A DNA stretch of 64,000 nt from Panorpa germanica. Its lineage: Eukaryota; Arthropoda; Insecta; Mecoptera; Panorpidae. Under the pieces are notes generated by a model. That model searched no databases, was not told where the DNA came from, and was given only the letters and a program-made list of their open reading frames with translations. Numbering within the stretch: position 1 is the stretch's first letter; each line of letters begins with the position of its first letter. Below, one piece after another: positions 15,631 to 64,000 of this stretch. The translations under genes were made by a program, and so were the position numbers. The DNA is taken from positions 2,728,001 to 2,792,000 of the forward strand of contig OY783205.1 of the NCBI GenBank assembly GCA_963678705.1, written 5' to 3'.

Positions 15631-15668
15631 TTTATAGGTGTAATCAAGATCTCCTCAACGCAATCGTC

Positions 15669-18642: not shown

Positions 18643-20289
18643 TCATTGAAGTGCTCTTTGGTAAACCACATTTTTTGTTTTTTGGTCTGACGTTAACACA
18701 AACAAAGCGGATGGTTTCCCAACTCGTGAACACGCAACGTATAACTGCCCAAGTGAAAAACAATGATTTTCTAAATTTATCCCGCAAACACTAAGCGATT
18801 GGCCTTGCGACTTGTTAATTGTCATTGCGAACGCAAGGCGAACTGGAAATTGCAATCGTTTGAAGTCAAACGGAAGATCAGTCGGAATCATTGGTATTCG
18901 AGGAATACATACATTTTCACCTGCGTACTTTCCGTTAATAATGGTTGCCTCAATCAAATTCGGCATAAGTGTTTTTATCGAAAGTCGAGTACCGTTGCAA
19001 AGTCGCGGTGGATTCAAACTACGCAATATCGTAATAACTGTACCAACTTTGAGTTGCAAGTTATGTGGTGGAAATCCTGGTAACTCCAGAGAGTTCAAAA
19101 ACTCCGTTGGATAATTTACTACATCATCGGGATTTGTTATGGAATCAACGGATTTGTATGTCACCAAATCGCCAGCAATTTTTGATTGAATGGTGAAATT
19201 CAGTGCGTGTACATCATTATTCTTTGCGGCAAGAATTGCTCGTTGACTTAACCAAGCATAATTCTGATAATTCTCACTAATGTTTGGGAAAACATTTTCA
19301 ATAAGAGCTAATTGAGAGTCTACAAATCGGCAAAAGTCGTTTGTAAGAGTAATTAATCCAGATGTCGCATTAACTGGGACTTTTCCATTTCCAACAGCTA
19401 ACAATTGTTTGGAAAATTGTGCAGCACTTTGATCGTTTTGAAGTTGAACTCTCATATTAGTGGTTAGCGATAATGTTTTTACGTTATTCCATAAAGGTGA
19501 TGCCTTCAGGCAAGCATTCAATTCATCTGCAGGCGTTCCACGGGGAATTACTGGCAACGTCTGCCTGAAATCGCCTGCCAACAATATCATCAAGCCGCCA
19601 AAGATGTTGTTATTTCGCCGAAGATCCTTCAGTGTGAAGTTAAGTGCTTCAAGTGATTTCTTATGTGCCATTGTGCACTTATCCCAAACAATGAAGTTGC
19701 ATTGCATCAACAATTTTCCCATTGCACTGGATCGGGAAATATTGCATGTTGGAGTATCAATTGTGTTTAAATTGAGTGGCAACTTAAGCGCAGAATGTGC
19801 AGTACGACCGCCATCTAGAAGAGTCGCCGCAATTCCAGATGATGCTAACGCCAAAGCTATGTTACATCTTGATCGAATAGTGGCCAAAATCAATGAAATG
19901 ACAAATGTTTTCCCTGTTCCTCCAGATGCGTCCAGGAAGAATAGACCACCAGTATTATTGTCCACCGCTTGCATTAATGTTTCGTATACTTGTTTTTGCT
20001 GTTCATTCAGCAACGGCACATTATTTCGAACGAATTCCTGCAATGTATCAACATTGTATTGCAGCTCTCTATTTAATTCTTGGTTGAATGCATCGTGCAT
20101 CGATCGATTTGGCGCAATCATTCCTACTTCAATCAGTAGCTTGTTTGCAATAGTCAAGCATTGATCCTCAATCAGAATCAATCCTTCATTGTAGATTTTA
20201 TCGGTAATTTGGATGTCAGGATTATTCGTTTGAATGCGCAAGCGATGCAAGATATCTTCACATATGTCGTCTTTGTATTTGTTCCATAA
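18643..20289 (-). pseudogene. Helitron copy A, PIF1-type helicase portion
   Basis: This in-frame continuation of the Rep reading frame follows an internal TAG at 20290-20292. It begins LWNKYKDDICEDILHRLRI and carries Walker A (GGTGKTF), LLAGDFRQTLPVIPRGT, and AFAMTINKSQGQSLSVCG near the C-terminus, with a typical VVYQRAL ending. This is superfamily 1B PIF1-like helicase, which would unwind DNA during rolling-circle transposition. It is open for 535 codons from the first internal Met. Because of the upstream stops it can be made as part of RepHel only by readthrough. Confidence 0.9.
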
Positions 20290-41899: not shown

Positions 41900-43546
41900 T
41901 CATTGAAGTGCTCTTTGGTAAACCACATTTTTTGTTTTTTGGTCTGACGTTAACACAAACAAAGCGGATGGTTTCCCAACTCGTGAACACGCAACGTATA
42001 ACTGCCCAAGTGAAAAACAATGATTTTCTAAATTTATCCCGCAAACACTAAGCGATTGGCCTTGCGACTTGTTAATTGTCATTGCGAACGCAAGGCGAAC
42101 TGGAAATTGCAATCGTTTGAAGTCAAACGGAAGATCAGTCGGAATCATTGGTATTCGAGGAATACATACATTTTCACCTGCGTACTTTCCGTTAATAATG
42201 GTTGCCTCAATCAAATTCGGCATAAGTGTTTTTATCGAAAGTCGAGTACCGTTGCAAAGTCGCGGTGGATTCAAACTACGCAATATCGTAATAACTGTAC
42301 CAACTTTGAGTTGCAAGTTATGTGGTGGAAATCCTGGTAACTCCAGAGAGTTCAAAAACTCCGTTGGATAATTTACTACATCATCGGGATTTGTTATGGA
42401 ATCAACGGATTTGTATGTCACCAAATCGCCAGCAATTTTTGATTGAATGGTGAAATTTAGTGCGTGTACATCATTATTCTTTGCGGCAAGAATTGCTCGT
42501 TGACTTAACCAAGCATAATTCTGATAATTCTCACTAATGTTTGGGAAAACATTTTCAATAAGAGCTAATTGAGAGTCTACAAATCGGCAAAAGTCGTTTG
42601 TAAGAGTAATTAATCCAGATGTCGCATTAACTGGGACTTTTCCATTTCCAACAGCTAACAATTGTTTGGAAAATTGTGCAGCACTTTGATCGTTTTGAAG
42701 TTGAACTCTCATATTAGTGGTTAGCGATAATGTTTTTACGTTATTCCATAAAGGTGATGCCTTCAGGCAAGCATTCAATTCATCTGCAGGCGTTCCACGG
42801 GGAATTACTGGCAACGTCTGCCTGAAATCGCCTGCCAACAATATCATCAAGCCGCCAAAGATGTTGTTATTTCGCCGAAGATCCTTCAGTGTGAAGTTAA
42901 GTGCTTCAAGTGATTTCTTATGTGCCATTGTGCACTTATCCCAAACAATGAAGTTGCATTGCATCAACAATTTTCCCATTGCACTGGATCGGGAAATATT
43001 GCATGTTGGAGTATCAATTGTGTTTAAATTGAGTGGCAACTTAAGCGCAGAATGTGCAGTACGACCGCCATCTAGAAGAGTCGCCGCAATTCCAGATGAT
43101 GCTAACGCCAAAGCTATGTTACATCTTGATCGAATAGTGGCCAAAATCAATGAAATGACAAATGTTTTCCCTGTTCCTCCAGATGCGTCCAGGAAGAATA
43201 GACCACCAGTATTATTGTCCACCGCTTGCATTAATGTTTCGTATACTTGTTTTTGCTGTTCATTCAGCAACGGCACATTATTTCGAACGAATTCCTGCAA
43301 TGTATCAACATTGTATTGCAGCTCTCTATTTAATTCTTGGTTGAATGCATCGTGCATCGATCGATTTGGCGCAATCATTCCTACTTCAATCAGTAGCTTG
43401 TTTGCAATAGTCAAGCATTGATCCTCAATCAGAATCAATCCTTCATTGTAGATTTCATCGGTAATTTGGATGTCAGGATTATTCGTTTGAATGCGCAAGC
43501 GATGCAAGATATCTTCACATATGTCGTCTTTGTATTTGTTCCATAA
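41900..43546 (-). pseudogene. Helitron copy B, PIF1-type helicase portion
   Basis: It is in the same frame as the Rep portion and follows TAG at 43547-43549. It starts LWNKYKDDICEDIL and has GGTGKTF, LLAGDFRQTLPVI and AFAMTINKSQGQSL. It differs from copy A by Glu for Lys in QITDEIYNEG. Motifs Ia to VI of a PIF1-like helicase appear intact. Confidence 0.9.
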
Positions 43547-46447
43547 CTAAATTGGTTGTGAAGGAAAACATGTGGTGATGATAATTGCGAACAGCGTTCG
43601 TATTTGGTACGCATTTGATGAAACAACTGAATCCGCAAATGTTAAATCCCAATGAGAATCGTTCTCCAGCAAACCCAATAGTTGACATGCTTCTCGATAT
43701 GTTTGGCATTGGTGGCCATTCACAGTTTTCAAATGCGCAAATGATTTTGGTCCACGTACATTTACCAACAGCAGTCGCAAATAAAAACATTCATCATTTC
43801 TAGGATGAACAGTATACATGCGACCTAGTGCATCAGTGGAAAACACCTGTGGCCAATCTGGAACTGGGGTTCCTTGTTTGCGACGTTGGAATTTCTTTGT
43901 TGATTGATTCCAAGTGTAATACTTGGGCATTTCAACGTACATCAGCGTCGCTGCGAATGGATCTGCTTCACTCATTGCAAAGAAGCTAGTCAATGTTGTC
44001 GATGGTGGTCTCTCAGCTCGTTGTGCCGCATTAGCCTCAGTGAAGTAAACTCTTTGGCCATTTTCCAAATGCACTGCTAAATGTACAACTGTGGGATATC
44101 TTTCATGAATTTGAAATGACAATAATCGCCACAGTGCTTCATTAGTACTGACGTATCTGCCCATTTGGAAGTTGCTGATTTCGTCATTCGCATTTTCCGA
44201 CGCAATACCAAACACAGCCATGTCGCTGCCTTTTGTGACGTACTTGCACAAATACTTGATTGATTTGGCCGAATGACAACTCTCAACGTTTGCATGTGTT
44301 TTGAAAATTCGTGATAGCAGCGGGCAATATGGTACAATGAATTCATTTCCGATCTCAATCTCTTGATTTTTAACTTTAACTTTAATAGTTCGACTATTAT
44401 CTTCTTTTGAACGCCGACGATAAACTGGATATCCATCGTTCCTTGTGACTGTTTCAGCAACTAACGGTCGCGGATATCGTTTTGTGCACTTTCCATCAGC
44501 CATGCAAGGCGATAATGGATTTAATGCACCGCACGGTCCATGCACCATCTGTGTCGTCACAATGTCGTGTAGATGGGGATCAGTGACTGGATCAGGAATT
44601 TCAGCTGATATGATGTCATCCACTTCATTTGAATGTAATTTGTTTAGCAACCAAATTAGGATATGAGCATGCGGTAGTCCACGCTTCTGCCATTCCACCG
44701 AGTACATATAACAACGTGTGTCACCAAAAACTCGATACTTAGTAAGCACATCCATCATAACCTTGAGTTTTTGCTGAAATACTCTGGCGATTATGTCATG
44801 GCGATCTTGCGGTTTTTGGCCCGGTTCCAACTCACGTTCAATTTCCGTCCACTTCGGATTGCATGTGAACGTAATAAATAAATCCGGAGTTCCATAATTT
44901 CGCACGTACGTCATAGCGTCTTGAGCGTATTCGTGCATGTGTCGTGGGCTTCCGATGTAAGATGATGGGAGAATCGTCAGACGTCCAATATTCTGAACAT
45001 CACCATCTGAATGAATAGCATCACGCAAGTGTATATAGTCCTCAGATCGTAGCTTTGCCTGATTGAATCGGATGAATGCTAAACGTTCGGTCTCGACTTT
45101 GACATACATGTCGACAGCGAATTGCTGGAATAGCCGACGGCACTTCAGAATGACATTCTCCTCATGTGTACGAATCATTATACGATACGCATAGTAATTC
45201 ATTGCGCTTAGATTTTTATTCGTTGATACACCTGAAAATGCAAAATTAAATGAATTGTTAATGGAAACCAATAATAGCAATAATAGCAATAATTAGTGTG
45301 TGAATATTGTACCAGTAATTGGATCTTCTACGACCATCTTCAACGTGATGTCGTATCCGTCTTGCCCTTGCCAATAAATGATTGGATATTGTAACGCATC
45401 GTACAAACGATGTGTCTCGTTTACACGATGCATGATATTGCTTCTTCGCTGAACGACAATGTCTCGCGATTTAGTTGGATCGCCAACAATAATTGCAGCA
45501 ACATCATTAACGGTGGAAGCATTGAATCTTCGCACATGTTCACCTGTTGGGGTACAATCCGCTCTTATGACAAATTTGTGCGTATCCGATGGCATTCGTT
45601 CCAATGCTGTTTTGAACATATTAACCACAGCATTATTAGCGTGAAAAAATGCTTGCAACTGTTCAATAATTCGTCTCTTTAACTGTTGTGTTCCCTGTAT
45701 ATTGCACCGCACATTCAGCTGATCCACCATCGACGAAATGAAATATATTTGCAGAAATTGATGCGGTTCATCTGGTGTTGGCACCATTGAACCATGCAAA
45801 ATGATATATTTGTCCTTGTATCTGTAATTGCAAACAATCATTTGTTGAAGAATACGGTGTAACTTCTGATCGTGTGATGGTGTAGTGTGTGGTGTATATG
45901 TAGTTGTTATGTGCTGCAATTCATTGTGTTGGTGTGAGTGATTGGTTATGTGTGTTGTATCTTTTACCTTGCAAGTCGGCATGAAGCCGCCTTCTCGAAT
46001 GATATTAGCTCCAAAGGAAGTCATGCGAAAGCAGTTATTGTATTCAAGGATGTGTTGAAGAAAATGGCTGGAATCGGGATCACTTCCATCGAACAATGGT
46101 TTCAGTGGCTGTGGTGGTGTAAGTAATGGATCCAGTTTGACTTTTCCACTTGCGCAGCACAATCCAGCCGTTTCTCTTTTGAACTTTAACGCATTGCAAT
46201 ATCGGCATATAGTCGTCGTTCGTCCAATATCTAAATTTTCATCATCACTGTAGTTCGCAGTGGGATCATATTGGAATGCCAAGCGATTGTATGATGCCAA
46301 TGATCTTCGTGTGCTCACGCGTTGTCTCAATCGGGCATTTTCTGTTATTATATTTTGTCTTTCTTTGCTTAAGTTCTGTGAATACAGTTGTTGCTGGCTT
46401 GCATGTCTTGCGCGGCGGCCGATGTTCGCACGTCGTCCTCTAGGCAT
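43547..46447 (-). pseudogene. Helitron copy B, N-terminal and HUH Rep portion (one spliced frame)
   Basis: Exon 1 (45,313-46,447) starts MPRGRRANIGRRARHAS and ends EDPITG. An 81-bp GT-AG intron (45,232-45,312) joins it in frame to VSTNKNLSAMNYYAYR. The Rep domain has PDLFITFTCNPKWTEIE, the HUH motif GLPHAHILIWLL (Trp intact) and KYLCKYVTKG with both tyrosines. Together with the helicase the full RepHel would be about 1,490 codons, a normal size, broken only by TAG 43547-43549. The position is within PSQPI-stop-LWNKY, where relatives encode an amino acid. Function without readthrough or suppression is doubtful. Confidence 0.88.
45232..45312 (-). other. Intron of Helitron copy B RepHel
   Basis: The donor is G|GTACAA and the acceptor TTTTCAG|GTGTATC on the minus strand. 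Splicing restores a continuous frame (EDPITG-VSTNKN) across an otherwise stop-containing 81 bp. The equivalent in copy A is 21,975-22,055. Confidence 0.75.
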
Positions 46448-47095: not shown

Positions 47096-49490
47096 CCTTA
47101 GACTTTAAAAGGGACTTTAAAGAGAAAAAAATCTAAGACTTCTAGCATCCCCGGATTTTTCCCTGAATTTCCTGGAAACCCGTATTTTGGGAAAAAATGG
47201 AAAAAAAGTGAGCCCTTTTTTTCTGTATTACTTTTAATTCGTAAATTATAGAAAGATGAAATTTTGCATGTGTATTAAGGTATTCAATGCTGACATTTCT
47301 CAAAAATTAGAAATTAAAAAATTAAAAAAGGGGGGGTTGAAGAAATTCGGGGGCCCGGTAGGAAACGTCAAAGAAAGTTCATATTCTAAATTCTAGAATA
47401 AATAAGTATATTATCAATAATAGAAAATTCAAAATTTTATTTGGGGGCACGGGGGACAATATTTTTCGAATGTAAAAATTGTGCTAGAAAGTTGAAATTT
47501 TGTATATAGGCTAACCTTGGTAACTTATTTACTAATCAAAAAAAATCCCAAATTTTGAAAAAAAGTTGGTCAAATAACGCATAAATTGAAAATATTTTTT
47601 ATTTTAATATAAAAAATATATTTTTTTGGTCAGTTTGTATGAAAAATTAATTGTTATTATTTGTAAAATTAATATAGGACTAGTTTATTTATTATTTCAA
47701 TTTAAAAATGAGTTTAAATTTTGACATGAAATTCAAGCCACACACAAAAAACAGACGTCGCTTGCGACGGGGGTAAAAGCTAGTCCTATATTATAATGTT
47801 CCAACTGTTTGTTTATATTCTTATCATCCTATATTATAATGTTCCAACTGTATGTTTATTTTCTTATATTCTTATATTCTTATGATCTTATATGTTTGGT
47901 ACTGAATTTTGTATGGCAGCGCGAAAACGGCTCCAGGGAAGTTTTTAAAAATTTCCTATTTCGTAGAGAAAAAAATTCTAAGACTTTTGGCGTCCTCGGA
48001 TTTTTCCCTGAATTTCCTGGAAACCCGTAATTTTGGAAAAACTGGAAAAAAAGTGAACCCTTTTTTGCTGTATTACTTTTAATTCGTAAAAGATAGAAAG
48101 TTGAAATTTTGAATGTGTATTAAGGTATTCAATTCTGACATTTCTCAAAAATTAGAAATTCAAAAAGTGAAAAAGGGGGGGTTGAAGAAATTCGGGAGCC
48201 CGGTAGGGAACTTTCGAGAAAGTTCATATTCTGGATTCTAGAATAATTAAGTATATTATTAATAAAAAAAAATTCAAAATTTCAAAATTTTATTTGGGGG
48301 CACGGGGGCAGTATTTTCCGAGAGTAAAAATTGTGCTAGAAAGTTGAAATTTTGTATATAGGCTAACCTTGGTAACTTATTTACGAATCGAAAAAAAAAT
48401 CCCAAATTTTGAAAAAAAGTTGGTCAAATAACGCATAAATTGAAAATATTTTTTATTTTGATAAAAAAATAATATTTTTTTAGTCAATTTATATGTGTGT
48501 ATATGTGCGCGAGTTTATTTATTATTTCAATTTAAAAATAGAACAGTTAAATATGAAATTTAATTACGAATTATTTTATTGGATTCAAATGATACACGCC
48601 AAAAAGACGTCGCATTGCGATAAGGGTAAACTCAAGTATATTATAATGTCCCAAGTGTATATTATCCTATATTATAATGTCCCAGGTGTATATTTATATT
48701 CTTATGATCTTATTTTCTTATATTCTTATCATCATATATTATAATGTCCCAGGTGTTTGAATCTATTCTTATATGTTTATATTCTTATATTCTTATATTC
48801 TTATATGTTTGGTACTGAATTTTGTATGGCAGCGCGAAAACGGCTCCGGCGATCTTTTTAAAAATTTCCTATTTCGTAGAGAAAAAAATTCTAAGACCTT
48901 TGGCGTCCCCGGATTTTTCCCTGAATTTCCTGGAAACCCGTAATTTTGGAAAAACTGGAAAAAAGTGATCCCTTTTTTGCTCTATAACTTTTAATTAGTA
49001 AAAGATAGAAAGTTGAAATTTTGCATGTGTATTAAGGTACTCAATGCTGACATTTCTCAAAAAAAAAAAATAAAAAAATTGAAAAAGGGGGGGTTCAAGA
49101 AATTCGGGGGCCCGGTAGGGAACTTTTGAGAAAGTTCATATTCTGGATTCTAGAATAATTAAGTATATTATTAATAAAAAAAAATTCAAAATTTCAAAAT
49201 TTTGTTTGGGGGCACGGGGGGCAGTATTTGCCGAGAGTAAAAATTGTGCTAGAAAGTTGAAATTTTGTATATAGGCTAACCTTGGTAACTTATTTCCGAA
49301 TCGAAAAAAAAAATCCCAAATTTTGAAAAAAAGTTGGTCAAATAACGCATAAATTGAAAATATTTTTTATTTTGATAAAAAAGTTTGTATGAAAAATTAT
49401 TTGTTTTTATATGTAGAATTTATATAGAACGATTTGAATATTTCAATTTAAAAAGGGAATTAAATTTTGACATGAAATAAAAACCACACA
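47096..49490 (+). mobile_element. Head-to-tail array of Helitron-like non-autonomous repeat units
   Basis: Roughly 0.7-0.85-kb units follow each other, with ends near 47,785 (gcgacgggggtaaaagCTAG), 48,640 (a decayed end, gcgataagggtaaactc) and a truncated unit stopping near 49,490. Each has a start such as tggcagcgcgaaaacggctc, a poly-G block (ggggggttgaagaaattcgg), a gcacgggggcagtattt block, gtgctagaaagttgaaattt, and a tail ending in the hairpin. Between units are (ttatattc)n-like simple repeats and ttataatgtccc motifs. No coding capacity is visible; frames at 47,809-48,030 and 48,493-48,744 are considered chance. Confidence 0.7.
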
Positions 49491-52391
49491 CTTGTGTACT
49501 GTAACTGTAACGACATACCACCACAAAAATACAATAAATCGTAATACAATTAAAATTCACGCCAAGCAGAACTCAGATATATAAAAAATGCTAAAGTCTC
49601 TTTAATACCAATGGTGTATCGATAAAAATTAAAGTAAAAGTTTACTCTCATGATAAATTATATTAGTGTAAAACAACTCCAATACACCCCCTACAGTACA
49701 CAAGTTGCTAGGAGTACTGTCATATCGGTACGGAGTATGTATGTGTTATAACACACAGAGTCGGTTTGCTTTGAGAATAGTAGCCGCTCATCCAACCCGC
49801 TGATTTACGTCGGAATTCGCCGTCGCTTAAATACGGTTTCGTACTGCGACTGGCCTAAGAACCCAACTATTTAAAGAACGTCACTATTTAAAATGTTTAC
49901 ACAACGTAATTATACTAAATTTTAAAAGATTTTTTTTTTAAATGTAAACAAATGAACACATATTAACAGTTTATTGATATAAAAACTTTGGGGCTAGATT
50001 CCTGTAAACATTTATATACTCGGTGTGACGGTGCATATGCATATGGATCTGTATTGTAATATACAATATATATGTTTGCCATACATGTATAAGTTTAACT
50101 GGTTGAATGTATGGTAATTGTTTACTAATGCTCTACTGCAATGTTTTATATTTTTCATGTTGGCTCCCTGTACTGTGTACTGTGTGTATTGTATTTGTTA
50201 ATAGCGGGAAACGTTGGTTTCGTTTTTTTTATGTTGCATTCTTTGCAAATATTTTGGAGGGAATACATACAAATAAACAAAGTGAATATCTTCAGTCTGT
50301 TAAAGTCAGTGCAGTTGGTTGGATCAGATTATTATATTTTTTGCATAAAGTTATAAATATTAATTGTTTTCTTAAGTGGTTAATAATAATTTCTTTATGT
50401 AATAAATCTATACATATTGATTTATATTACGTTTTAATTGATATAAGGTAAGTTTTCTTTAATCTTATTTTATATTTGCAGTTATATTTCTACGTTGTTA
50501 CAATATGAGTTGTGTAAACCTTTTTTAACGATAGTAATAATTGTCTGATACTCTATGTAATATTACAGGATTCATGAGTATTAGTTTAGAAATATTTCAA
50601 TAGTAAATAAAAATGTTATATTTCCGTACCAAATATAGAAACATATTAATAGTGTAAAATGTTCTGTAGTAAATAACAATTACTATGACAGTACTTAAAA
50701 TATAACTTTTGTTACTCGCTAATAGATAAAATTTAACTGTGCTAAAAGTGAAACTTTCAAATATTTACATTATTTACTGATGATAACAAAATGCTTTAAT
50801 TAACAATGCAACTTATTTAAAATATGGTTTAATAATTATACTATGTTTTTCAGGTATTGAGACATATATTGTGTTTCCCTTGCTGTCAAAGTAAAGTGGT
50901 CCGTGATATATTTAGTAAAGGTAAGTTATTAATAATTTACAGTTATTAATCTAATCTATTTCTGTATATTATTCTAAATTAATTCAATCTTTCATATTTT
51001 TTTTATCTGTGGCTCGATGCAAAAAGGCAAATGTCAAAACTTCCACATTTTAGAAAGGCTTATTACCAATGTTATTAAAAATTATTTTAATTCTAACATA
51101 TTTAGTCTATGGTTCAAACAGAAAAGGACTATTTTAGTATGGTTTGGTAGTTGTTAAAGTTAACAGTTCAGTATTGATGTTTAACACTTTTAGCTTCTAC
51201 TGATATTAGTTAATTGATATCGATATTGGCCAAACATACATCTCTGTTATTGATTGAGATCTAAATTTGACTGCTTACCATTTTAAGCATTGCAGAAATG
51301 ATTCAGTCAGAACTCCAGTTTACATGTCATATGGCTGGAAATTATACATGTTTCAGTATTGAAACGAAAATGTGAAATTCAAATCAAAGACAGACAAGTC
51401 ATTCAGACAGCAGTTTTACCAAATCTGTTTGACATTGCATAATTACACCTGTCATTACATAACTAAAATGATTTGTAATCTGTTTTCGATATTCATAACA
51501 TATTTAATACCTTCAGTAAAAATTACATGAGGCTAATTTTGCTTTTAGAAAAATGAAATTCTTTTATTTGTTTCAGATTCTTGAATGATACACATTATAC
51601 TTATTATATATTGCTGCTATATTAATTTTGAGCTAAGACGAGTATAATTTTTATTACTGGTTTGTTAATTTTATTTATTTATAAATGTTTTATATTCTAC
51701 ATTGTAAAAATATTCGTCGAAATAATGCTTTAGACACCTCTTTCTTATGCTAAAGCTACACTGCGAAAAAGAATAGTACTGAAATAAATCCATCACTTGA
51801 ATCATACAAATGTATATATGGTACATTTAAATTCAAATTTAAAAGTAGGCGGAAATAATTTATATTTTTATTGTTATTATTTCTGGAGTATTCTTTTCCG
51901 CAGTGCAGCCCTAGCGTAAGAAAAAGGCGTCTAAAGCATGTTTTCAATCCATTCTGTTTACAGTGCATGTTTTATTATTCGTGTTTCACATTTATTATTC
52001 ACATTTTAAATAAACTTATGTTCTTGCATGTTACTTTAGTTTCCACAAAATATTTTAGTTTCCATAATCATTTACCTTTATGTTATAGATTAACGTAGCC
52101 ATATATATTTTTAATTATCGTATTGTTTTTTTTTAATTTTAGGAAAATAAGAATTTAAATCACTCCATTGGACATATGTTTATATAAGTATATATTACAA
52201 TATACGTGAGGACAAATTTTTCTGTGGCGTATGTTACATTCCAGAGATCTTTTAAGGAGCTAAGTATATTATATTAAAATATTTGCTTATTTCTTTTATT
52301 TAATCTTTATTCATTACCTATATCTAATAATAGTTTAGTTAATACTTTTAAATTTTATTTTATATATAACATATTTATTTGTTTCTTCAAT
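49491..52391 (+). other. Noncoding region upstream of the giant ORF, with possible spliced leader
   Basis: No convincing protein is seen. Canonical splice signals are present: a donor aag|GTAAGT at 50,447/50,448, a possible 67-bp exon 50,854-50,920 (acceptor tttttcag, donor GTAAGT), an acceptor ttgtttcag at 51,576, and another, ttttaattttag, at 52,142. They could belong to an untranslated leader of the downstream ORF or to an unrelated transcript. The small open frame at 50,107-50,451 has no motif. I could not identify the 5' terminus of the element carrying the ORF. Confidence 0.35.
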
Positions 52392-55300
52392 ATGTCTAAA
52401 TCTTTATTCGGATTTGGAAGGAAACGAAATGTGTCTTCTGTTAATATTAGGAATTTAAAAACTAATGCAAATGAACTAAAGAAGCCATTATCAATTGTAA
52501 GAGGTAGTTTCAGTCAATTTGACAAAAGATTTTGTGATACGTCCCTTGGTAAGCAGTGTACTTTCAATTGCTTTGTCGCAATATGTGTAAACGAAACTAC
52601 TGCATTAAATACGTGGCATTCAGAAACTTTAAATGATATTTTAAAATTAGGAGATCGATGTTACTTAGATAATTTTGTAGGTAATCAACACGATTTGTTA
52701 TTAGCTGATAAACTCAAACAAAACATCTCCGTAAAAGGTCACACATACGTCGTATATTGTGACAAATCAAAAACTCTGTGTGGTGACATTATAAATGCAA
52801 AGGCAGGTATTAATAAATTAACAATTTCATTTCTAGAATCATTTTTCGTAGAACATGAAAAAGGACTATTTACAATTAGTAATGAGACTTTTGTTATTTT
52901 TAAAGAATCTGATTTATTTTGGGTGTTCGATTCACATCCAAGAGGTATTAAAGGACAAATTGTTTGTGAAAAAAATGGAAAATCCGTTCTTTTATGTTTT
53001 AATGACCTTCTAGATGTCATAAACTTGATTAAATTTAATTTTAGTAACTGTGAAAACACTCAATTTTCTATTGTTCCTGTTAGTATATTAAGCACTATGG
53101 ACAATACTACTTTAATAGAAATAAATAATTCTACAAACTCTGTAAACATGGAGGAAATCGTGACAACTTCCATTTATAGTTCTCCAAATCTTAATGTCTC
53201 TGAATTAGGTGTAACTGAATTCAAATTGCCTGAACCTTATAAAATAGTGCAAGCTAATTTTAATCAAGCAAGTGATATTTTTACAAATTTTAATAAAAAT
53301 TCTCAATGTACGGCAATAGCTACATTCAGTATATGTATACATGCATTAATTGCATTAAATAACTGGACCACTCACATATTAGATTATATTTTAATACTAG
53401 GAGACAATTGTTATCGAAAAAATTTAAAACCCGGCTGTCACCCATTTTTACTGATCGAAGAGATTAATCCAATTATATCGATTGGTAATGGTACATGTAA
53501 AATTAGTCATGATCTTATGAACACTGCACAAGGTGATCTTAATATATTAACAGGAGACTTTTTAGAAAAATATTTTAAAAAATACAACAACGGGCTATTC
53601 ACTACTTGCAGTCAAACATTTGCAATCTTTAAACATAACAGTCTTTTTTGGATCTTTGATTCCCATTCCAGGGGTTTAAAGGGACAATCTACTTCAAATT
53701 CTAATGGCAAAGCAGTACTTTTGTGTTATAAATATGTAACTGATTTAGTCGACTTGATTAAATACAATTTTCGGAATTCTGCGGGTTCTTTATTATTTAC
53801 AATTAACCCAATTACCATAACAAGTATTACAGGTAATATTAATATTTCAGAAATTTGTGAATATTCTTACTCAAAGTTTACCAGTGAAATTAGTGAAATA
53901 AGTGCCAATATAAATAGTGATAGTGTAATATGTGATAATGTAGCATGTGATATTTTAGTAAGTGATTATAATGTGCAGTTAAATAAATTAGAAAAAGTTA
54001 GTGATACAGTATTATCAATAGAAGAAAACCAAGGACGATGTACTATATTAAAAACAAGAGTAAGTGAAAGGCTCTTAAAAAAGGCGAAACAAGCCGAATG
54101 TGTACGAAGGAAAACAATATTGGAGGCTCAATGTGATGAAGACAAAAATAAACGCTTACAAAAACAGATTTTAAGAAATAGGGATAATTTTAGTCAAGAA
54201 ACTAAAGGTGAAAGGCAAAAGAGATTAAAAGAACTGAAGACATATTTTGAAAAGAAATTAGACAGCGAAACAAGTGAGTTAAAACAAATTCGTTTAAAAG
54301 AACAGGCGGTGAGAGATAGCAAGAGATTCAGAAGAGAGACGCCTGACAAAAGAAGAACAAGACTAGAGAAACTGAAAGCAGATTTGATGAAGAAATTAAA
54401 TAAGGAAACAAGTGAGTTAAAACAAATTCGCTTAAAAGAACAGGCGGTGAGAGATAGCAAGAAATTCAGAAGAGAGACGCCTGACAAAAGAAGAACAAGA
54501 CTAGAGAAACTTAAAGCAGATTTTAAGAAGAAATTAAATAAGGAAACAAGTGAGTTAAAACAAATTCGCTTAAAAGAACAGACGGTGAGAAATAGCAGGA
54601 GATTCAGAAGAGAAACGCCTGACCAAAGAAGAACAAGACTAGAGAAACTTAAAGCAGATTTTAAGAAGAAATTAACTAAGGAAACGAATGAATTAAAACA
54701 AATTCGCTTAAAGGAACAGGCAGTTAGAGATACTAAAAGATTCAAAAGAGAAACGCCTGACAAAAGAAGAACAAGACTAGAGAAACTGAAAGTAGATTTT
54801 AAGAAGAGATTTATTTTGGAAACAAGAAACGCAAGACAAGTTCGTCTAAAGAAGCTGAATTTAATAAACAAAAAGCGATTGTTACAGGAAAGTACAAAAG
54901 AAAAAGAAAGAAGAAAAAAAAAAATATTATTTCGCAAAAGAATTAGGTTAGCCAGTGAAAAAGAAGAGACAAAGCGCAATAGATTAAATAATATAGCCTT
55001 GCAAAAGCAAAGCAAATTAGATAAAGCGTTAGAACTTGAAACACAAAGAGAAAAGGAAACACAAAATATTGCACCATCCATATCGCAACAAACATTCAGC
55101 ACAGCCCTTCAAGAAATAGACGATGAAGTACTTGTAATACAACATAACTGTGGATCTATGAACGTTATCTGTCAATTTTGTGAAGCAACTCATTTCAAAA
55201 ATGAGAAGCCAACAGATGGGAAATTTTCATTATGCTGTTCAAAAGGCAAAGTTTCAATTCCGAACTCTTCTAACCATTTTCCAGAGCTGTTAATGGAATT

Positions 55301-58300
55301 AATGACTAATATGCATCCCCTTTCTGCCAATTTTATGGATAACATCAGAAATTACAATAGTTCGCTTGCATTTGCTTCATTGGGAGCACATATTGATCAC
55401 CGTTCAGGCACACGTGGGCCGTACTGTTTCAGGATATGTGGTCAGGTTTACCATAGAATATCATCGGCACACCCTACAGAAGGAAAACAGCCACAATATG
55501 GTCAGCTGTATATTCTAGATCCTGATGAGGCCATATGTAAAAGAATGCAAGGCGATGTTAACCGTAAATGCAAGAGACAACTATTTGAGCAATTGGATTC
55601 TTTAATAAGAAAAGTAAATCCATACGCTGCTGCATATAAAATGATGGCTGAAGTAGAAAGAGAGGAGATTGCAAAAGCTAATTTAGAAGGTAGAAACCCT
55701 TTTGATGTGCAGATGAATATTGTTCAGCAGCTCACAAAAGATCCACGGCGATACAACGTGCCGTCTACTAATGAAGTAGCTTTAATTTTTACAAGCAAAG
55801 ATGGATTACCACCTTCTGATAGAGATATTTGTGTCTATCAAAAAGATGGTATTCTACGTAGCATAAATATTCTTAATGAAAATTGCGATCCAATGACTTA
55901 TCCGTTGTTATGTCCAACCGGTGAACTCGGCCATTCGGAACATTTACTAAATGTTTCATTAGCAAGAAGAATTTCTCATCGTCAATTTTATTCTTATAAA
56001 CTTAGATGCACGGGCTCTTTTAATCCATTTCTTAGTGCCGGAAAACTTACTCAACAGTATATTGTTGACGCATATTCCAAAATCGAAGGTAATAGACTTA
56101 ATTTCATTCGGAACGCAAATACACAAAAGAAATTGCGGTCAGAAATGTATTTTGGGTTAATGGATTATGTCAAAAATAAATCCAATAATGAAGGTATTAT
56201 ACCTGGCAGAATGGTTATTTTACCAAGTACATTTGTCGGAAGTCCACGTAGCATGTCACAACATTATCTTGATGCTATGGGAATTATTTGTAAATATGGT
56301 TCACCGGATTTGTTTATTACAATGACATGTAATCCCGAGTGGCCAGAAATTAAAAGTAATTTACTTAATAATCAACGAACCGAAAATCGTCCCGATTTAG
56401 TTGTTAGAGTATTTCAATTAAAAGTGAAAGAACTCTTTGACGATCTATTGAAAAGACATATTTTCGGTAAGGTAACAGCTATCGTTTCTGTTATTGAATT
56501 TCAAAAACGCGGTTTACCTCACATTCACATTCTAATAATTTTAAATAATCAAAATAAAATTCGAAACACGGAACTTATTGATAAAGTTGTATCTGCAGAA
56601 ATTCCAGATAGTGAAACTCATCCCATTTTATTTGATGTGGTCAAGAAATGTATGATTCACGGTCCATGTGGACCATATAATTTAAATGCTCCATGCATGA
56701 AAGACAATAAATGCAGTAAAGATTTTCCGAAATCATTTCAAGCTTCCACTGTAAATAACAGTAACGGGTATCCTTTGTACAGACGTCGGGATAATAATTC
56801 AAAAATAGATTTTTATACGGCAAAAGGCACTATAAAACATACAGTAGATAATAGATGGGTTGTACCGTACAATAGATTCCTTTCCTTGAAATATAGATGC
56901 CACATTAATGTTGAAATTTGCGCTTCGGTTAAAAGCGTAAAATATTTATTTAAATATATATATAAGGGCCATGATTGTGCCAATGTTAAAATAACATCTG
57001 AAGGACAAGCACAATTAGACTGGGATGAAGTTTCATTTTATTTAGACGCGCGATATGTATCACCACCGGAAGCCATGTGGAGAATATTTGCATTCGATCT
57101 GCAATATAAAACACACACTATATATAGGTTAGCAGTTCATTTAGAAAACCAACAAAATATTTTATTTACTGAAGGAAATGAAGAATCTGCATTAGCAAAG
57201 TCTTCAGAAACTACATTAACGGCTTGGTTTAAATTAAATTCAACATCGGTAGAGGCTAAAACTTATTTGTATACGGAAATACCCGAACATTACATTTTTG
57301 ATCGCAAAAAGACATGGACTTTAAGACAGCGCATAAGTCATTTGATAATTCCGAGAATGTATAGTGTTAGTCCTAAAGAAGGTGAAAGGTTTTATTTAAG
57401 GTTATTGTTGCTTCATGTACGCGGCGCTACATGTTTCAAAGACTTGCGAACTCTCAATGGAATCGAATATTCCACTTTCCACGAAACAGCAAAACAATTA
57501 GGTTTATTGAATGATGCTACTCAATGGGATCGTTGTTTAGATGATGCTTCAATTTGTAAAATGCCCAAACAGCTACGACAGCTATTTGCTTTTATTTGTA
57601 TTTTTTGCGAACCCTGCGATCCTAATTTATTATGGGATAACCATAAAGTAACTTTATGCGAGGATTATAGTTTAACTTATAACCAAGAAACTGCGGAACA
57701 GTTAGCTATCAATGACATCATTGATATTTTTAAATTACATAATTTCAATTATACTGATTTTGGATTTCTGGAATATCATAATGTAAATTTAGTTTTAGTT
57801 AGGGAAACATTTAACCAAACAGAAGAATTTGAGCAAGGGGTTAATTTTAGTAATCAATTAAATTCGGAACAGAAAAACATATTTGATGAAATAATGCTTT
57901 GCATAAACAATGATAATGAAGAGCAAAGATATTTCTTTATTCATGGGTCGGGTGGTTCTGGGAAAACATTTCTTTATACTGCTTTACTACACGTCGTACG
58001 TGGAATGGGATTAACTGCTATACCTGTGGCTTGGACAGGGATAGCTGCGACTTTACTGAAAGCGGGGAGGACAATTCATTCACAGTTTAAATTACCGGTT
58101 CCCCTAGATGGAAATTCAACTTCATCCATAAGGCACAACTCTATTGATGGGAAGTTATTAAAATCAGCTAAGTTAATTATATGGGACGAGGTTACAATGG
58201 CGCCTTACTTTGCTTTAGATGTAGTAGATATGTGCCTTCGCGATTTAATGAAAAATAATAAGCCATTTGGTAATAAAATCATTTTACTAGGAGGAGATTT

Positions 58301-59246
58301 TCGACAATGTCTTCCTGTTGTTAAACGCGGAACGGTTGCAGATATAGTTTCAACGTGTATTCAAAATAGCAGGTTATGGTCACTTTTCAAAATTAAGCAT
58401 CTGACAATTAACATGAGAGTTGCGCAAGAAGAAATCGATTTTAAAACGTGGTTATTACAACTTGGAGATGGACTAATTAATGATTGTCCAGGTAGTGTAG
58501 TAAACATGGTTAAAATTCCAAATAAATTCATTTCCGCCAAACCTTTAGTCGATGAAATATACGGCGATATTAATTTAGTTACTCTTGATGAATTAAAATC
58601 TCGCGTAATTTTATGTCCATTAAATGAAGACACATTACAGATTAATGAAAAAATTTTAAATTTATTGGATGGGGAACAAATTTGCTCTTTAAGTCATGAC
58701 TCTGTTTCAACTGATTCTGATACAGAACAAAATCATTTCCCAGTAGAATTTTTAAATAGTTTGACACCATCGGGTATGCCTCCACATAAATTAAATTTAA
58801 AAATAGGTGCAATCATAATGCTTTTAAGAAATATGAATGCTAATAGTGGACTTTGCAATGGAACCCGTTTAATTGTAAAACATATCTATACATCTGTAAT
58901 AGATGCAGAAATAATTACTGGAAGTCACACCGGTGATCGCGCTCTTATTCCTAAAATAGTGTTAGCTCCTTCTGATATAAATCTTCCATTTATACTTAAA
59001 AGAGTTCAGTTTCCTGTTCGATTAGCATTTGCTATGACAATAAATAAATCACAAGGTCAAACTTTTGAAAAAGTAGGTGTTTTATTACGGGAACCCGTTT
59101 TTACTCATGGCCAATTATATGTAGCGTTTTCAAGGGTTAAATCATCCAATAATTTAAAAATTGAAACATTAACTTCTGTTACTAAATCAAAGAAGGATAC
59201 ATTTACTTCCAATGTTGTTTATAAAAATGTACTTCTATTAGAATAG
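52392..59246 (+). CDS. Helitron-type protease-Rep-helicase polyprotein (2,284 aa), intact
   Basis: One uninterrupted frame starts at ATG 52,392. Two similar N-terminal domains (about 35-235 and 285-480) each carry a Gln-Cys-Thr (Cys56, Cys306) and an FDSH motif (Asp180/His182, Asp423/His425). This Cys plus Asp-x-His layout suggests papain-fold cysteine proteases of the kind related to C76-type deubiquitinases (family assignment inferred). Residues ~560-890 are highly charged, probably coiled coil, with four 46-residue repeats. From ~920 comes the Helitron N-terminal Cys cluster (ICQFCEATHF), then the HUH Rep domain with GLPHIHILI (His1377, His1379) and the YLFKY tyrosines (1518, 1522). A PIF1-like helicase follows, with Walker A GSGGSGKTF (Lys1858), Walker B IIWDE (Asp1932) and MTINKSQGQTF (about 2,217). 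It should nick, unwind and re-join DNA in rolling-circle transposition; the protease role is unknown. No catalytic residue appears lost. Confidence 0.93.
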   Translation: MSKSLFGFGRKRNVSSVNIRNLKTNANELKKPLSIVRGSFSQFDKRFCDTSLGKQCTFNCFVAICVNETTALNTWHSETLNDILKLGDRCYLDNFVGNQHDLLLADKLKQNISVKGHTYVVYCDKSKTLCGDIINAKAGINKLTISFLESFFVEHEKGLFTISNETFVIFKESDLFWVFDSHPRGIKGQIVCEKNGKSVLLCFNDLLDVINLIKFNFSNCENTQFSIVPVSILSTMDNTTLIEINNSTNSVNMEEIVTTSIYSSPNLNVSELGVTEFKLPEPYKIVQANFNQASDIFTNFNKNSQCTAIATFSICIHALIALNNWTTHILDYILILGDNCYRKNLKPGCHPFLLIEEINPIISIGNGTCKISHDLMNTAQGDLNILTGDFLEKYFKKYNNGLFTTCSQTFAIFKHNSLFWIFDSHSRGLKGQSTSNSNGKAVLLCYKYVTDLVDLIKYNFRNSAGSLLFTINPITITSITGNINISEICEYSYSKFTSEISEISANINSDSVICDNVACDILVSDYNVQLNKLEKVSDTVLSIEENQGRCTILKTRVSERLLKKAKQAECVRRKTILEAQCDEDKNKRLQKQILRNRDNFSQETKGERQKRLKELKTYFEKKLDSETSELKQIRLKEQAVRDSKRFRRETPDKRRTRLEKLKADLMKKLNKETSELKQIRLKEQAVRDSKKFRRETPDKRRTRLEKLKADFKKKLNKETSELKQIRLKEQTVRNSRRFRRETPDQRRTRLEKLKADFKKKLTKETNELKQIRLKEQAVRDTKRFKRETPDKRRTRLEKLKVDFKKRFILETRNARQVRLKKLNLINKKRLLQESTKEKERRKKKILFRKRIRLASEKEETKRNRLNNIALQKQSKLDKALELETQREKETQNIAPSISQQTFSTALQEIDDEVLVIQHNCGSMNVICQFCEATHFKNEKPTDGKFSLCCSKGKVSIPNSSNHFPELLMELMTNMHPLSANFMDNIRNYNSSLAFASLGAHIDHRSGTRGPYCFRICGQVYHRISSAHPTEGKQPQYGQLYILDPDEAICKRMQGDVNRKCKRQLFEQLDSLIRKVNPYAAAYKMMAEVEREEIAKANLEGRNPFDVQMNIVQQLTKDPRRYNVPSTNEVALIFTSKDGLPPSDRDICVYQKDGILRSINILNENCDPMTYPLLCPTGELGHSEHLLNVSLARRISHRQFYSYKLRCTGSFNPFLSAGKLTQQYIVDAYSKIEGNRLNFIRNANTQKKLRSEMYFGLMDYVKNKSNNEGIIPGRMVILPSTFVGSPRSMSQHYLDAMGIICKYGSPDLFITMTCNPEWPEIKSNLLNNQRTENRPDLVVRVFQLKVKELFDDLLKRHIFGKVTAIVSVIEFQKRGLPHIHILIILNNQNKIRNTELIDKVVSAEIPDSETHPILFDVVKKCMIHGPCGPYNLNAPCMKDNKCSKDFPKSFQASTVNNSNGYPLYRRRDNNSKIDFYTAKGTIKHTVDNRWVVPYNRFLSLKYRCHINVEICASVKSVKYLFKYIYKGHDCANVKITSEGQAQLDWDEVSFYLDARYVSPPEAMWRIFAFDLQYKTHTIYRLAVHLENQQNILFTEGNEESALAKSSETTLTAWFKLNSTSVEAKTYLYTEIPEHYIFDRKKTWTLRQRISHLIIPRMYSVSPKEGERFYLRLLLLHVRGATCFKDLRTLNGIEYSTFHETAKQLGLLNDATQWDRCLDDASICKMPKQLRQLFAFICIFCEPCDPNLLWDNHKVTLCEDYSLTYNQETAEQLAINDIIDIFKLHNFNYTDFGFLEYHNVNLVLVRETFNQTEEFEQGVNFSNQLNSEQKNIFDEIMLCINNDNEEQRYFFIHGSGGSGKTFLYTALLHVVRGMGLTAIPVAWTGIAATLLKAGRTIHSQFKLPVPLDGNSTSSIRHNSIDGKLLKSAKLIIWDEVTMAPYFALDVVDMCLRDLMKNNKPFGNKIILLGGDFRQCLPVVKRGTVADIVSTCIQNSRLWSLFKIKHLTINMRVAQEEIDFKTWLLQLGDGLINDCPGSVVNMVKIPNKFISAKPLVDEIYGDINLVTLDELKSRVILCPLNEDTLQINEKILNLLDGEQICSLSHDSVSTDSDTEQNHFPVEFLNSLTPSGMPPHKLNLKIGAIIMLLRNMNANSGLCNGTRLIVKHIYTSVIDAEIITGSHTGDRALIPKIVLAPSDINLPFILKRVQFPVRLAFAMTINKSQGQTFEKVGVLLREPVFTHGQLYVAFSRVKSSNNLKIETLTSVTKSKKDTFTSNVVYKNVLLLE
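54250..54830 (+). repeat. Four 138-bp (46-codon) tandem repeats inside the giant ORF
   Basis: The landmark GATAGC-like codons recur at 54,315, 54,453, 54,591 and 54,729, exactly 138 bp apart. The protein unit includes RRETPDKRRTRLEKLKAD and ELKQIRLKEQAVRD. Divergence increases toward the 3' unit. The length is a multiple of three, so copy-number change keeps the frame. The sequence predicts a long charged helix. Confidence 0.93.
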
Positions 59247-60730
59247 ATACCTCCAAATTATTCGAAATTATTTACTTTTTGCTATTTCATCTGCTATTCG
59301 AGTTTTATAAGTAATAATATTATAATTCATCATGTTCAGGTCAAATAATAGTGTCCTTAAATTTTAGATTCTCTTTACGTATTTTTCTTTTAGCAGTCAT
59401 TTGTTAAACAAATACTCTATTCGGGAGAGTGAGATTATCATTTAATTGCTTCTAGATAGATATAATTGAGATTTATTTTTTAAGTTCTCATTATTTTTTT
59501 ATTATATAGTTCAGATTAATTTTTACTTAATTAAACTATTAACCTTAAAAACCTTCCATCGTTTTTACGGTTCGAAATTATTTAATCTTTGCGATTTCAC
59601 CCGTTTTCCGTGTTTTATAAGTAATGATGTTTTATTTTATCAGTTTTAACCCAAATAGTGCTTTAAATTTTAGATTCTCTTTACGTATTTTTCTTTTAGC
59701 AGTCATTTGTTAAACAAATACTCTATTCGGGAGAGTGAGATTATCATTTAATTGCTTCTAGATAGATATAATTGAGATTTATTATTTAAGTTCTCATTAT
59801 TATTTTATTATTTACTCTTAAATTTTAGATTATCTTTACGTATTTTTCTTTTGGCAGTCATTTGGTAAACAAATACTCTGGTCGGGAGAGTGAGATTATC
59901 ATTTAATTGCTTTTAGATAGGTATAATTGAGATTTATTATTTAAGTTCTTATTATTATTTCATTGTTTACTCTTAAATTTTAGATTCTCTTTACGTATTT
60001 TTCTATTGGCTTTCATTTGTTAAACAAATACTCTGGTCGGGAGAGTGAGATTATCATTTGATTGCTTTTAGATAGGTATAATTGAGATTTATTATTTAAG
60101 TTTTTATTATTATTTTATTATTTACTCTTAAATTTTAGATTCTCTTTACGTATTTTTCTATTGGCTTTCATTTGTTAAACAAATACTCTGGTCGGGAGAG
60201 TGAGATTATCATTTGATTGCTTTTAGATAGGTATAATTGAGATTTATTATTTAAGTTCTTATTATTATTTTATTGTTTACTCTTAAATTTTAGATTCTCT
60301 TTACGTATTTTTCTATTGGCTTTCATTTGTTAAACAAATACTCTGGTCGGGAGAGTGAGATTATCATTTGATTGCTTTTAGATAGGTATAATTGAGATTT
60401 ATTATTTGAGTTCTCATTTTTATTTTATTATTTACCGCTAGATGAAAGTGTTATATATATTATATCGTGCGTACGAAGTGATGTACTCTTTGCCATTTTA
60501 CCTGCCTTTCGTGTTTACTTAGTAATAGTGTTATATTTCATTGTTTTCAAGCCAAATAGTAGTGTTCTTAAATTTTAAATTCTCTTTCCGTATTCTTCTT
60601 TTAGCAGTCATTTGTTAAACAAATACTCTGATCGGGAGAGTGAGATTATCATTTAATTGCTTTTAGATAGGTATAATTGAGATTTATTATTTAAGTACTC
60701 ATTATTACTTTATTATTAACTTTTAGATGT
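59247..60730 (+). repeat. Satellite-like array following the giant ORF (about 155-bp B units with A spacers)
   Basis: The motif tcgggagagtgagattatca recurs at about 59,422, 59,728, 59,883, 60,038, 60,193, 60,348 and 60,633 (spacings 306, 155, 155, 155, 155, 285). The 155-bp B unit includes ttttagattctctttacg, ttgttaaacaaatactct and ataattgagatttatt. The longer spacings contain a second unit A (near 59,255, 59,565 and 60,470; tttgc-atttcacc-ttttataagtaat). The order is A-B, A-B-B-B-B-B, A-B. It begins right after the stop codon and so is probably the 3' noncoding part of the same element. Confidence 0.9.
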
Positions 60731-62460
60731 AAGTGTTATATATATTATATTGTATGTTATTGGCATTTTAATTGTTTTCAGATTACCACATATCCTTTTA
60801 TGAATTCTTTCCTTTTTATAATCCTATGTTGGTCCTCTCCTCTCCCGACAACGAAGTTTCAAATTTATAAAATTCAGTCATATTCATATTGAAATAACTT
60901 CTACATAACTACATGCATGCTTAATTATCCTATGAATAATATATTTTAAAAATTTGTTTCATATTCTTTACCTGCTCGCTGGTGTTGTCGCATGATTTAT
61001 TTGATAACGTTTAGAAAAATACTCTTATTTACAAATCATTAATCGTAAAATTTTTAACTGTAGTCTAATGTGTAATAATTGTTACCAGATCAGTATTTTT
61101 ATTACAACGTTTGCAGATAAATTAACTAAAAAGAATATTTCCTTTTTAAATTATAAATTATGCTTTCATATTATTAATTATTAATACGAATATTGCTATT
61201 ACAAATAATTAACATTAAATATTAATATTAATATAGTACATATTAAGTTTTAGGTCTTTGCAACTAAGAAGTGTATAAAGTGTGTCTAGACCTACCAGTA
61301 CGAAAGAATCATTTGTCTGAAATTCGTTAAAAAGTAACCTAAAATACCTTTATGACACAATTATATATATCATCATGATGATACAATCATATCATTATGC
61401 TGAGATTCTTTAAAATGCTAACATAACATTCTCAGGTATTATGCTTTTTAAATAGATTTTTAAACAAATGAATTAATACGTTTGATGTTGCAAAACATTA
61501 TTTTTGTATTTAATTTTTGTGAAATAACTACTACAAACATTATTACTATTCTATATTATCATTTTATTAAAAATAAATACAATATATTCTTCATGTTGTT
61601 TAAGACGATCATGCAAGTACGATGTAAATTAATGTTATTGTAATTTACAGAGCGAAAAAAGGGCCGTGGCAATAAGAAGATTTTAGTTGATCGTGTATAT
61701 TTATAAAATACAACAAAGACCCGGCTTACGGGAAATTCATTATCTATTATTCTGATAAACAATTCAATGAAGCAGATATTGGTGCTGTTCATCACATGTA
61801 CAAACTGTAAGTGCATAATTTATTTGTTTTGCATTCAGTATATTTTCTTTATTTATTTATTAAGAATGCTTCTTTTAGGAGGGGAATAATAAAGTGCTAC
61901 TATTTAAAATGCTAAACCTGGAATAGTAATGAGATAATAACCGCTAACATCACAGAAGACTACTGTCCTACTATCACAGAAGATGTTATATCCACACCGA
62001 TTAAGGCATGACAATCTGAAACGACAGTGCGTTAATAGCTATACGTTTATGAAGAAACAACAAGAAAGATAACAACATAAAAAATACAAAGAATACTGTT
62101 TACTGGTCAATGAAGAAATAATTTTAATTATGTATATTAAAGTGTACGAAAAATGAAGACGATGTATATAAATATATAATTAATATACGAGTATTTAACA
62201 GAAATATTAAAATTTAATTATGAAACATTTATTATATTTATTTATAAAACTAGAATTTTAAATTTTTTTGATATGATATAATAAGTAAATCCTGTAGAAT
62301 ATTTGTTCCAATAAGCAATTTTAAAGTAGTAGATCATATTATAAGATGAATTACAACATTTTCAATTTAAAATATTTATTCATTTTATGTACGAGTATGA
62401 TATCTCAAAAATAGCGACAGTGCTTTTCTAATTTTAATATGAAAAATTTAAAATGAAATT
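60731..62460. other. AT-rich region; 3' terminus of the protease Helitron not located
   Basis: At 60,838-60,850 ctctcccgac is the inverse complement of the gtcgggagag core of the satellite units. At about 61,605-61,680 a stretch (ttattgtaatttacagagcg...ccgtgg) is similar to intron 2 of the F-box/LRR-like copies. A 39-codon frame at about 61,700-61,810 (NKDPAYGKFIIYYSD) ends beside a GTAAGT and could be an exon, but I recognise no family. Nothing else is seen. Confidence 0.4.
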
Positions 62461-62464
62461 ACGT

Positions 62465-64000
62465 ATTACTTTATGAAATTCAAATAATATATATTAAATA
62501 GACGTCGCTTTGCGACGGGGTAAAAGCTAGTATGTTTATATGTTTGGTTCGAATTTTGTATGGCATCTCGAAAACGGCTCCAGGGAAGTTTTTAAAAATT
62601 TCCTATTTCGTAGAGAAAAAAATTCTAAGACTTTTGGCGTCCCCGGATTTTTCCCTGAATTTCCTGGAAACCCGTAATTTTGGAAAAACTGGAAAAAAGT
62701 GATCCCTTTTTTGCTGTATTACTTTTAATTCGTAAAAGATAGAAAGTTGAAATTTTGCATGTGTATTAAGCTATTTAATGCTGACATTTTCCAAAAATTA
62801 TAAATTCAAAAATTCAAAAAGGGGGGGTTCAAGAAATTCGGGGGCCCGGTAGGGAACTTTTAAGAAAGTTTATATTCTGGATTCTAGAATAATTAAGTAT
62901 ATTATTAATAAAAAAAAAATTCAAAATTTCAAAATTTTGTTTGGGGCACGGGGGGCAGCATTTGCCGAGAGTAAAAATTGTGCTAGAAAGTTGAAATTTT
63001 GTATATTGGCTAACCTTGGTAACTTATTTACGAATCGAAAAAAAAAATCCCAAATTTTGAAAAAAAGTTGGTCAAATAACGCATAAATTGAAAATATTTT
63101 TTATTTTGTTAAAAAAATAATATTTTTTTAGTCAATTTATATGTGTGTATATGTGCGCGAGTTTATTTATTATTTCAATTTAAAAATAGAACAGTTAAAT
63201 ATGAAATTTAATAACGAATTATTTTATTGGATTCAAATCATACACGCCAAAAAGACGTCACTTTGCGACGGGGGTAAACTCTAGACTTTAAAAGAGACTT
63301 TAAAGACTTTAAAGAGAAAAAAATTCTAAGACTTTTAGCGTCCCTAGATTTTTCCCTGAATTTCCTGGAAACCCGTAATTTTGGAAAAACTGGAAAAAAA
63401 GTGATCCCTTTTTTGCTGTATTACTTTTAATTCGTAAAAGATAGAAAGTTGAAATTTTGCATGTGTATTAAGGTATTCAATGCTGATATTTCTCAAAAAT
63501 TAGAAATTCAAAAATTGAAAAAGGGGGGGTTGAAGAAATTCGGGGGCCCGGTAGGAAACTTTGGAGAAAGTTCATATTCTGAATTCTAGAATAATTAATT
63601 ATATTATTAATAAAAAAAAATTCAAAACTCCAAAATTTTATTTGGGGGCACGGGGGCAGTATTTGCCGAGAGCAAAAATTGTGCTAGAAAGTTGAAATTT
63701 TGTGTATAGGCTAATCTTGGTAACTTATTTACGAATCGAAAAAAAAAATCCCAAATTTTGAAAAAAAGTTGGTCAAATAACGCATAAATTGAAAATATTT
63801 TTTATTTTGTTAAAAAAAATATTTTTTTTTAGTCAATTTATATGTCATGTATATGTGTGCGAGTTTATTTATTATTTCAATTTAAAAATAGAATTAAATA
63901 TGAAATGTAATTACGAATTATTTTATTGGTTTCAAATCATACACGCCAAAAAGACTTCGCTGTGCGACGGGGGTAAACGTTACTGGACATTAAATTTTTA
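62465..64000 (+). mobile_element. Second array of Helitron-like non-autonomous repeat units
   Basis: A unit end (gacgtcgctttgcgacggggtaaaagCTAG) lies at about 62,503-62,531. A full ~755-bp unit follows, ending gcgacgggggtaaactCTAG near 63,284. A third unit runs to the window edge with gtgcgacgggggtaaacg near 63,976. The cores match those at 40.9-49.5 kb closely. The array continues beyond the window. Confidence 0.7.

Follow-up and report, generated by a model that had tools for sequence, protein, structure and literature searches.

Predicted tandem deubiquitinase-family domains in a canonical-type Helitron of Panorpa germanica

We analyzed a 64,000-nucleotide window of the Panorpa germanica genome (GenBank assembly GCA_963678705.1, contig OY783205.1, forward-strand positions 2,728,001 to 2,792,000), which contains a Helitron whose polyprotein opens with two domains that we assign to the viral-tegument-like deubiquitinase (VTD) family. 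The first-pass annotation of this DNA, made from the sequence alone, had described an uninterrupted 2284-codon frame with HUH and helicase motifs, and our open reading frame (ORF) scan and motif scan both agree. Scanning the polyprotein located the HUH motif PHIHI at residue 1376, YLFKYIYKG at residue 1518, a Walker A motif (GSGGSGKT) at residue 1852 and further helicase motifs at residues 1929, 1967, 2217 and 2243. Pfam identified Helitron_like_N, PIF1, Pif1_2B and STPRs domains, with no significant match in residues 1-500, where the single match had an E-value of 0.42. Rep and PIF1 helicase are joined in one chain, the arrangement by which a canonical Helitron is recognized. STPR repeats are probably DNA-binding, and our paper search found no Helitron carrying them.

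Table 1. Features of the Helitron, numbered from the first base of the window. Conservation was counted over 34 alignable genomic copies, window copy included.
Feature	Position	Strand	Details and basis
Whole Helitron copy	48665..62530	+	~13.9 kb; homology ends against close genomic copies, terminal motifs
Polyprotein ORF	52392..59246	+	2284 amino acids (aa), single frame, ATG start, without internal stop
VTD1	52473..53111	+	residues 28-240; 8ADD E 2e-8 over residues 32-233; Foldseek top match 8ADD
VTD1 putative catalytic Cys56 codon	52557..52559	+	aligned with DrT1-VTD2 Cys322; kept in 33/34 copies
VTD1 Asp180-Ser181-His182	52929..52937	+	aligned with Asp451-x-His453; Asp in 34/34, His in 33/34 copies
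VTD2	53223..53861	+	residues 278-490
VTD2 putative catalytic Cys306 codon	53307..53309	+	8ADD alignment; kept in 34/34 copies
VTD2 Asp423-Ser424-His425	53658..53666	+	8ADD alignment; Asp in 34/34, His in 33/34 copies
STPR-coding tandem repeats	54232..54826	+	138-bp (46-aa) unit; TRF; Pfam STPRs 2.4e-25, 7 stretches
Helitron_like_N / HUH Rep domain	56013..56537	+	residues 1208-1382; Pfam
PIF1 helicase and Pif1_2B domain	57855..58880	+	residues 1822-2031 and 2119-2163; Pfam; with Rep part aligned to Helraiser 7LCC
155-bp tandem repeats	59663..60435	+	5 copies; element's 3' non-coding part
3' terminus: hairpin, then CTAG + T	62501..62531	+	comparison with close copies; single-stranded DNA folding

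The two N-terminal domains are homologous, as had been proposed. Across 229 aligned residues the N-terminal halves were 38% identical, with an E-value of 4e-50 in a single comparison, far beyond chance, and the QCT boxes at residues 55 and 305 place the two cysteines exactly 250 residues apart, where about 250 had been stated; DSH boxes follow at residues 180 and 423. Both domains matched the solved Helitron VTD structure PDB 8ADD by sequence (E 3.5e-5 for VTD2 and 1.5e-14 for a joint profile), with 20-24% identity in fold alignments, and Foldseek searches with template-free AlphaFold models of VTD1 and VTD2, both of low confidence, returned 8ADD first and herpesviral M48 next. We take M48 (PDB 2J7Q) to be the herpesviral large tegument deubiquitinase of peptidase family C76; it has the same Asp-x-His order. 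The C76-type layout suggested by the first-pass annotation holds up through the match to 8ADD. The triads named there, Cys56/Asp180/His182 and Cys306/Asp423/His425, align with Cys322/Asp451/His453 of 8ADD. The Gln that aligns with the 8ADD Gln upstream of the Cys box is also kept (Gln42 in 33/34 copies, Gln292 in 34/34), and in M48 the Gln at the corresponding position is part of the oxyanion hole. According to the portions of Erven et al. 2022 (PMC9741609) on which we draw, 8ADD is the second VTD of the zebrafish Helitron DrT1 (DrT1-VTD2), and mutation showed that its Cys and Asp-x-His are needed for ubiquitin cleavage. From these sequence and fold comparisons, we place both N-terminal domains in the VTD family, with their putative triads retained. 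An OTU protease was rejected: neither DGxC nor D[AGS][DN]C occurs in residues 1-500, in line with the OTU signature having been reported absent, and no OTU Pfam match was obtained.

The same portions of PMC9741609 assign a C-terminal AP endonuclease to Helitrons with recognizable VTDs, making them Helentrons and leading one to expect the same here. However, the ORF closes behind the helicase, Pfam matched it to no endonuclease family at E-values up to 1, and the region downstream (59240-62540) has only short frames, all <90 aa, with no endonuclease among them. Residues 913-2281 are co-linear with residues 111-1495 of 1496 of PDB 7LCC (1413 bits), which we take to be the bat Helitron Helraiser, and both ends of the element also point away from a Helentron. 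In the window copy, the 5' end has TC at 48665 after an A, or alternatively lies near 48731, depending on the count of a 67-bp tandem unit; at the 3' end, CTAG closes at 62530 and the next base is T. We compared the termini in ten close copies with flanks from the same genome. The 5' sequence TCCTATATT is shared by the window copy and 5/10 close copies (c011, c012, c014, c018 and c029), c020 has a different start, and the remaining four gave no pattern match. As to insertion between A and T, an A precedes this end in four of the five, and c018 instead adjoins the CTAG of another Helitron. The 3' hairpin with CTAG was seen in 7/10 close copies, with T as the next base in 7/7 of these; the sequence fetched for the remaining three did not contain it. 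Folded as single-stranded DNA, the terminal hairpin has a z-score of -2.7. Because the element combines absence of an endonuclease with Helraiser co-linearity and TC and hairpin-CTAG ends, we classify it by sequence as a canonical (Helraiser-type) Helitron with canonical-type termini, which the first-pass annotation had not recognized, and a Helentron identity is scarcely credible. The 155-bp array in the 3' non-coding part seemingly has a higher copy number in c018.

Residues 1-495 were searched against the same genome (464 Mb), with the best candidates alone being scored, so that all counts are lower bounds. This gave at least 88 matches at 86 places (two pairs of matches belong together). 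At least 76 of the matches run through both domains, beginning no later than residue 27 and reaching at least residue 493, and 53 of these are free of stops within the residues 1-495 match. In at least 23, the frame stays open for 2100 aa or longer. The ORF start ATGTCTAAA is common to 10/10 close copies examined. Two of these have an early stop (c010 at 637 aa, c016 at 1396 aa), and the ORFs of the other eight are 2192-2330 aa long, the lengths 2330 (two copies) and 2192 (one copy) corresponding to 2284 plus or minus one or two 46-aa units. Seven of the eight long-ORF copies are 95-97% identical in protein over the full length, and this identity, together with the open frames, indicates that the element was probably active recently.

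Helitrons are prone to capturing gene fragments (PMC6431247, in the part consulted), so the VTD pair could be captured sequence riding passively in the transposon. Against this, frame and start are alike in all ten close copies, the triads are conserved, and selection has acted on both domains. Using pairs among 8 representatives of the 34 copies, the ratio of nonsynonymous to synonymous substitution rates (dN/dS) was 0.29-0.39 for VTD1 (pairs with synonymous divergence, dS, of 0.48-0.59) and 0.11-0.28 for VTD2 (pairs with dS >0.3), and that of the 37-residue linker between them ranged noisily from 0.38 to 5.5. VTD1 and VTD2 are both under purifying selection between subfamilies, which makes passive capture very improbable.

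Several observations weigh against our overall reading of the element, given below. Mean pLDDT (predicted local distance difference test) scores of the two AlphaFold models were 46 and 51, with the Cys-bearing segment below 50 in both, and the M48 matches for the VTD1 model were not significant. The Pfam model PF04843 (Herpes_teg_N) has no match in the protein or the genome, though control genomes gave none either; M48 differs in being a domain of a viral tegument protein. The triad exceptions are L024 and L026, both of which also carry a stop, and L018, which has an open 2330-aa ORF with VTD1 His182 changed to Tyr. VTD1 dN/dS in the close pair L009/L027 is 1.52, based on few changes. Finally, VTD1 lacks a second acidic residue. 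In DrT1-VTD2, the pair Asp376-Glu377 was proposed to hold the ubiquitin tail, and E377A strongly reduced activity (PMC9741609, same portions). VTD2 has Glu356-Glu357 at this position in 34/34 copies, whereas VTD1 has Asp106 in 34/34 copies followed by Lys107 in 33/34. Since Lys107 occupies the Glu377 position, VTD1 may be weaker or act on a different substrate.

A stronger version of this idea is that VTD1 has come to specialize in another ubiquitin-like modifier, or now serves in binding or regulation, leaving VTD2 as the only true deubiquitinase. The Lys107 and Glu-Glu pattern and the lost His in L018 fit this proposal, as does a dN/dS that is higher in VTD1 than in VTD2 between most subfamilies. 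However, the VTD1 triad is otherwise kept, VTD1 outscores VTD2 against 8ADD, and copy L059 has Asp-Glu at the VTD1 acidic pair. We consider such a division of labor unlikely, though deserving of more weight than the other alternatives weighed here.

Comparison of copies revealed that VTD1 and VTD2 do not share one history, a feature absent from the first-pass annotation. L009 and L037 differ by a dS of 0.54 in VTD1 and 0.08 in VTD2, whereas L009 and L034 show the opposite pattern (0.12 in VTD1, 0.75 in VTD2); for L059 and L061 the values are 0.58 and 0.19. Identity profiles between copies rise and drop stepwise along the frame, and trees of residues 1-180 and 230-495, built from 11 of the 34 copies, mutually rejected each other in approximately unbiased (AU) tests (p 4e-6 and 2e-38). 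This tree conflict indicates that modules recombined between subfamilies, which is the simplest reading and makes the VTD modules mosaic. Template switching during rolling-circle replication and gene conversion are candidate routes.

Placing these findings beside known systems, tandem VTDs in a Helitron are not in themselves new. The portions of PMC9741609 cited above document VTDs in the Helitrons of vertebrates, insects, cnidarians and molluscs, and report that both VTDs of DrT1 react with ubiquitin and NEDD8 probes, prefer chains linked through K48 and K63, and are also substantially active on K11 chains. Like DrT1, the Panorpa element has two VTDs with Cys and Asp-x-His in one Helitron protein and no OTU domain; it carries STPR repeats after them, DrT1 being set beside it for the VTDs alone. 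The novelty implied by the first-pass annotation therefore fails in part: a Helitron whose two VTDs are both active has already been published, which comes close to an outcome that the annotation itself had named as refuting. The canonical-type ends and lack of an endonuclease differ from the VTD-bearing Helentrons of that paper. Compared to Helraiser, the Rep-helicase (residues 913-2281) is alike, and an extension of tandem VTDs and STPR repeats precedes the alignable part. OTU-carrying Helentrons (PMC4067079, as seen in part) are likewise rolling-circle elements with a deubiquitinase-like cysteine protease, but of another protease family and another Helitron subclass. In the passage seen of PMC4289320, the Pleurotus element helpo1.3 has a captured gene, capD, to which the herpes UL36 model PHA03247 had been assigned; capD stands as a gene of its own in a single enlarged copy and is not a Rep-helicase domain, and that passage on the fungal copy does not describe VTDs in the Rep-helicase. 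PMC12910113 names UL36 in the legend of a figure showing D. virilis elements, and the passage concerned likewise describes no VTDs in the Rep-helicase. A search of open-licence literature found no canonical Helitron with VTDs in the titles and abstract openings of the papers listed, which does not prove absence from print. The tandem-VTD Helitron is a known kind, and the canonical-type setting with mosaic VTD modules makes this element a new form of it.

The first-pass annotation had also raised the possibility that the protease pair processes the polyprotein, cutting it into functional pieces. The domains do form the N-terminal part of a polyprotein of 2284 aa and adjoin a variable linker, and cleavage into Rep, helicase and endonuclease subunits is one role considered for Helentron OTU proteases in the part of PMC4067079 consulted. 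On the other hand, the protein contains neither LRGG nor RGG, and in the portions of PMC9741609 used here, every characterized VTD protein cleaves ubiquitin and polyprotein processing is not reported for the family. We therefore regard self-cleavage as improbable. It also sits poorly with Helraiser, which functions as one Rep-helicase chain without a protease.

Taken together, the evidence makes it likely that this element is an autonomous canonical Helitron that was probably active not long ago and that its transposase has a VTD-family pair at the N-terminus, followed by STPR repeats. By analogy with the VTD family, the two domains would strip ubiquitin in cis or from nearby host proteins, with K48/K63/K11-type chains being removed if they behave as in zebrafish DrT1. 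The Rep-helicase or needed host factors would thereby be shielded from proteasomal degradation and be longer-lived during transposition, driven by HUH nicking and PIF1 unwinding in a rolling-circle manner. By this analogy, the likely role is to free the transposase or host factors of degradative ubiquitin, and ubiquitin stripping to prolong protein life has also been suggested for Helitron VTDs (PMC9741609, same portions). These results carry the known range of deubiquitinase-family domains in transposons beyond Helentrons, into a canonical Helitron, and suggest that rolling-circle transposition in general may benefit from the removal of ubiquitin. A broader and more tentative idea, which we would not favor at present, is that deubiquitinase modules form a toolkit which rolling-circle transposons share and exchange. 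In this view, a tandem VTD would have entered the canonical Helitron lineage in addition to Helentrons, and the two VTDs would be reshuffled independently by recombination within one genome, VTD1 drifting toward another ubiquitin-like target as if in an arms race against a host that controls the transposase through ubiquitin. The copies that have open frames and exchanged VTD1/VTD2 pairs provide a natural series for probing the role of VTDs in the transposon.

Other repeats and genes occupy the rest of the window. Short Helitron-like repeats adjoin the element at 47784-48664 and 62531-64000, sharing its 5' subterminal 0.5-0.7 kb with 85-95% identity and having a 3' hairpin that is similar in part; these are probably non-autonomous relatives, which the element could mobilize. 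Two copies of another Helitron family lie on the minus strand at 18643-23190 and 41900-46447, each broken into several frames. They are much alike, with equal ORF lengths and Pfam scores, are ~35% identical to the Rep-helicase of the VTD element, and gave no VTD match by tblastn. Two further ORFs, at 15624-17060 (plus strand, 478 aa) and 32828-34207 (minus strand, 459 aa), have no Pfam match at E 0.01. A retrotransposon gag-like ORF on the minus strand at 26040-28247 contains zinc knuckles and a SAP domain, together with a match to an aspartyl protease that falls short of the curated cut-off, and a tRNA-Ala gene is located at 1847-1918.
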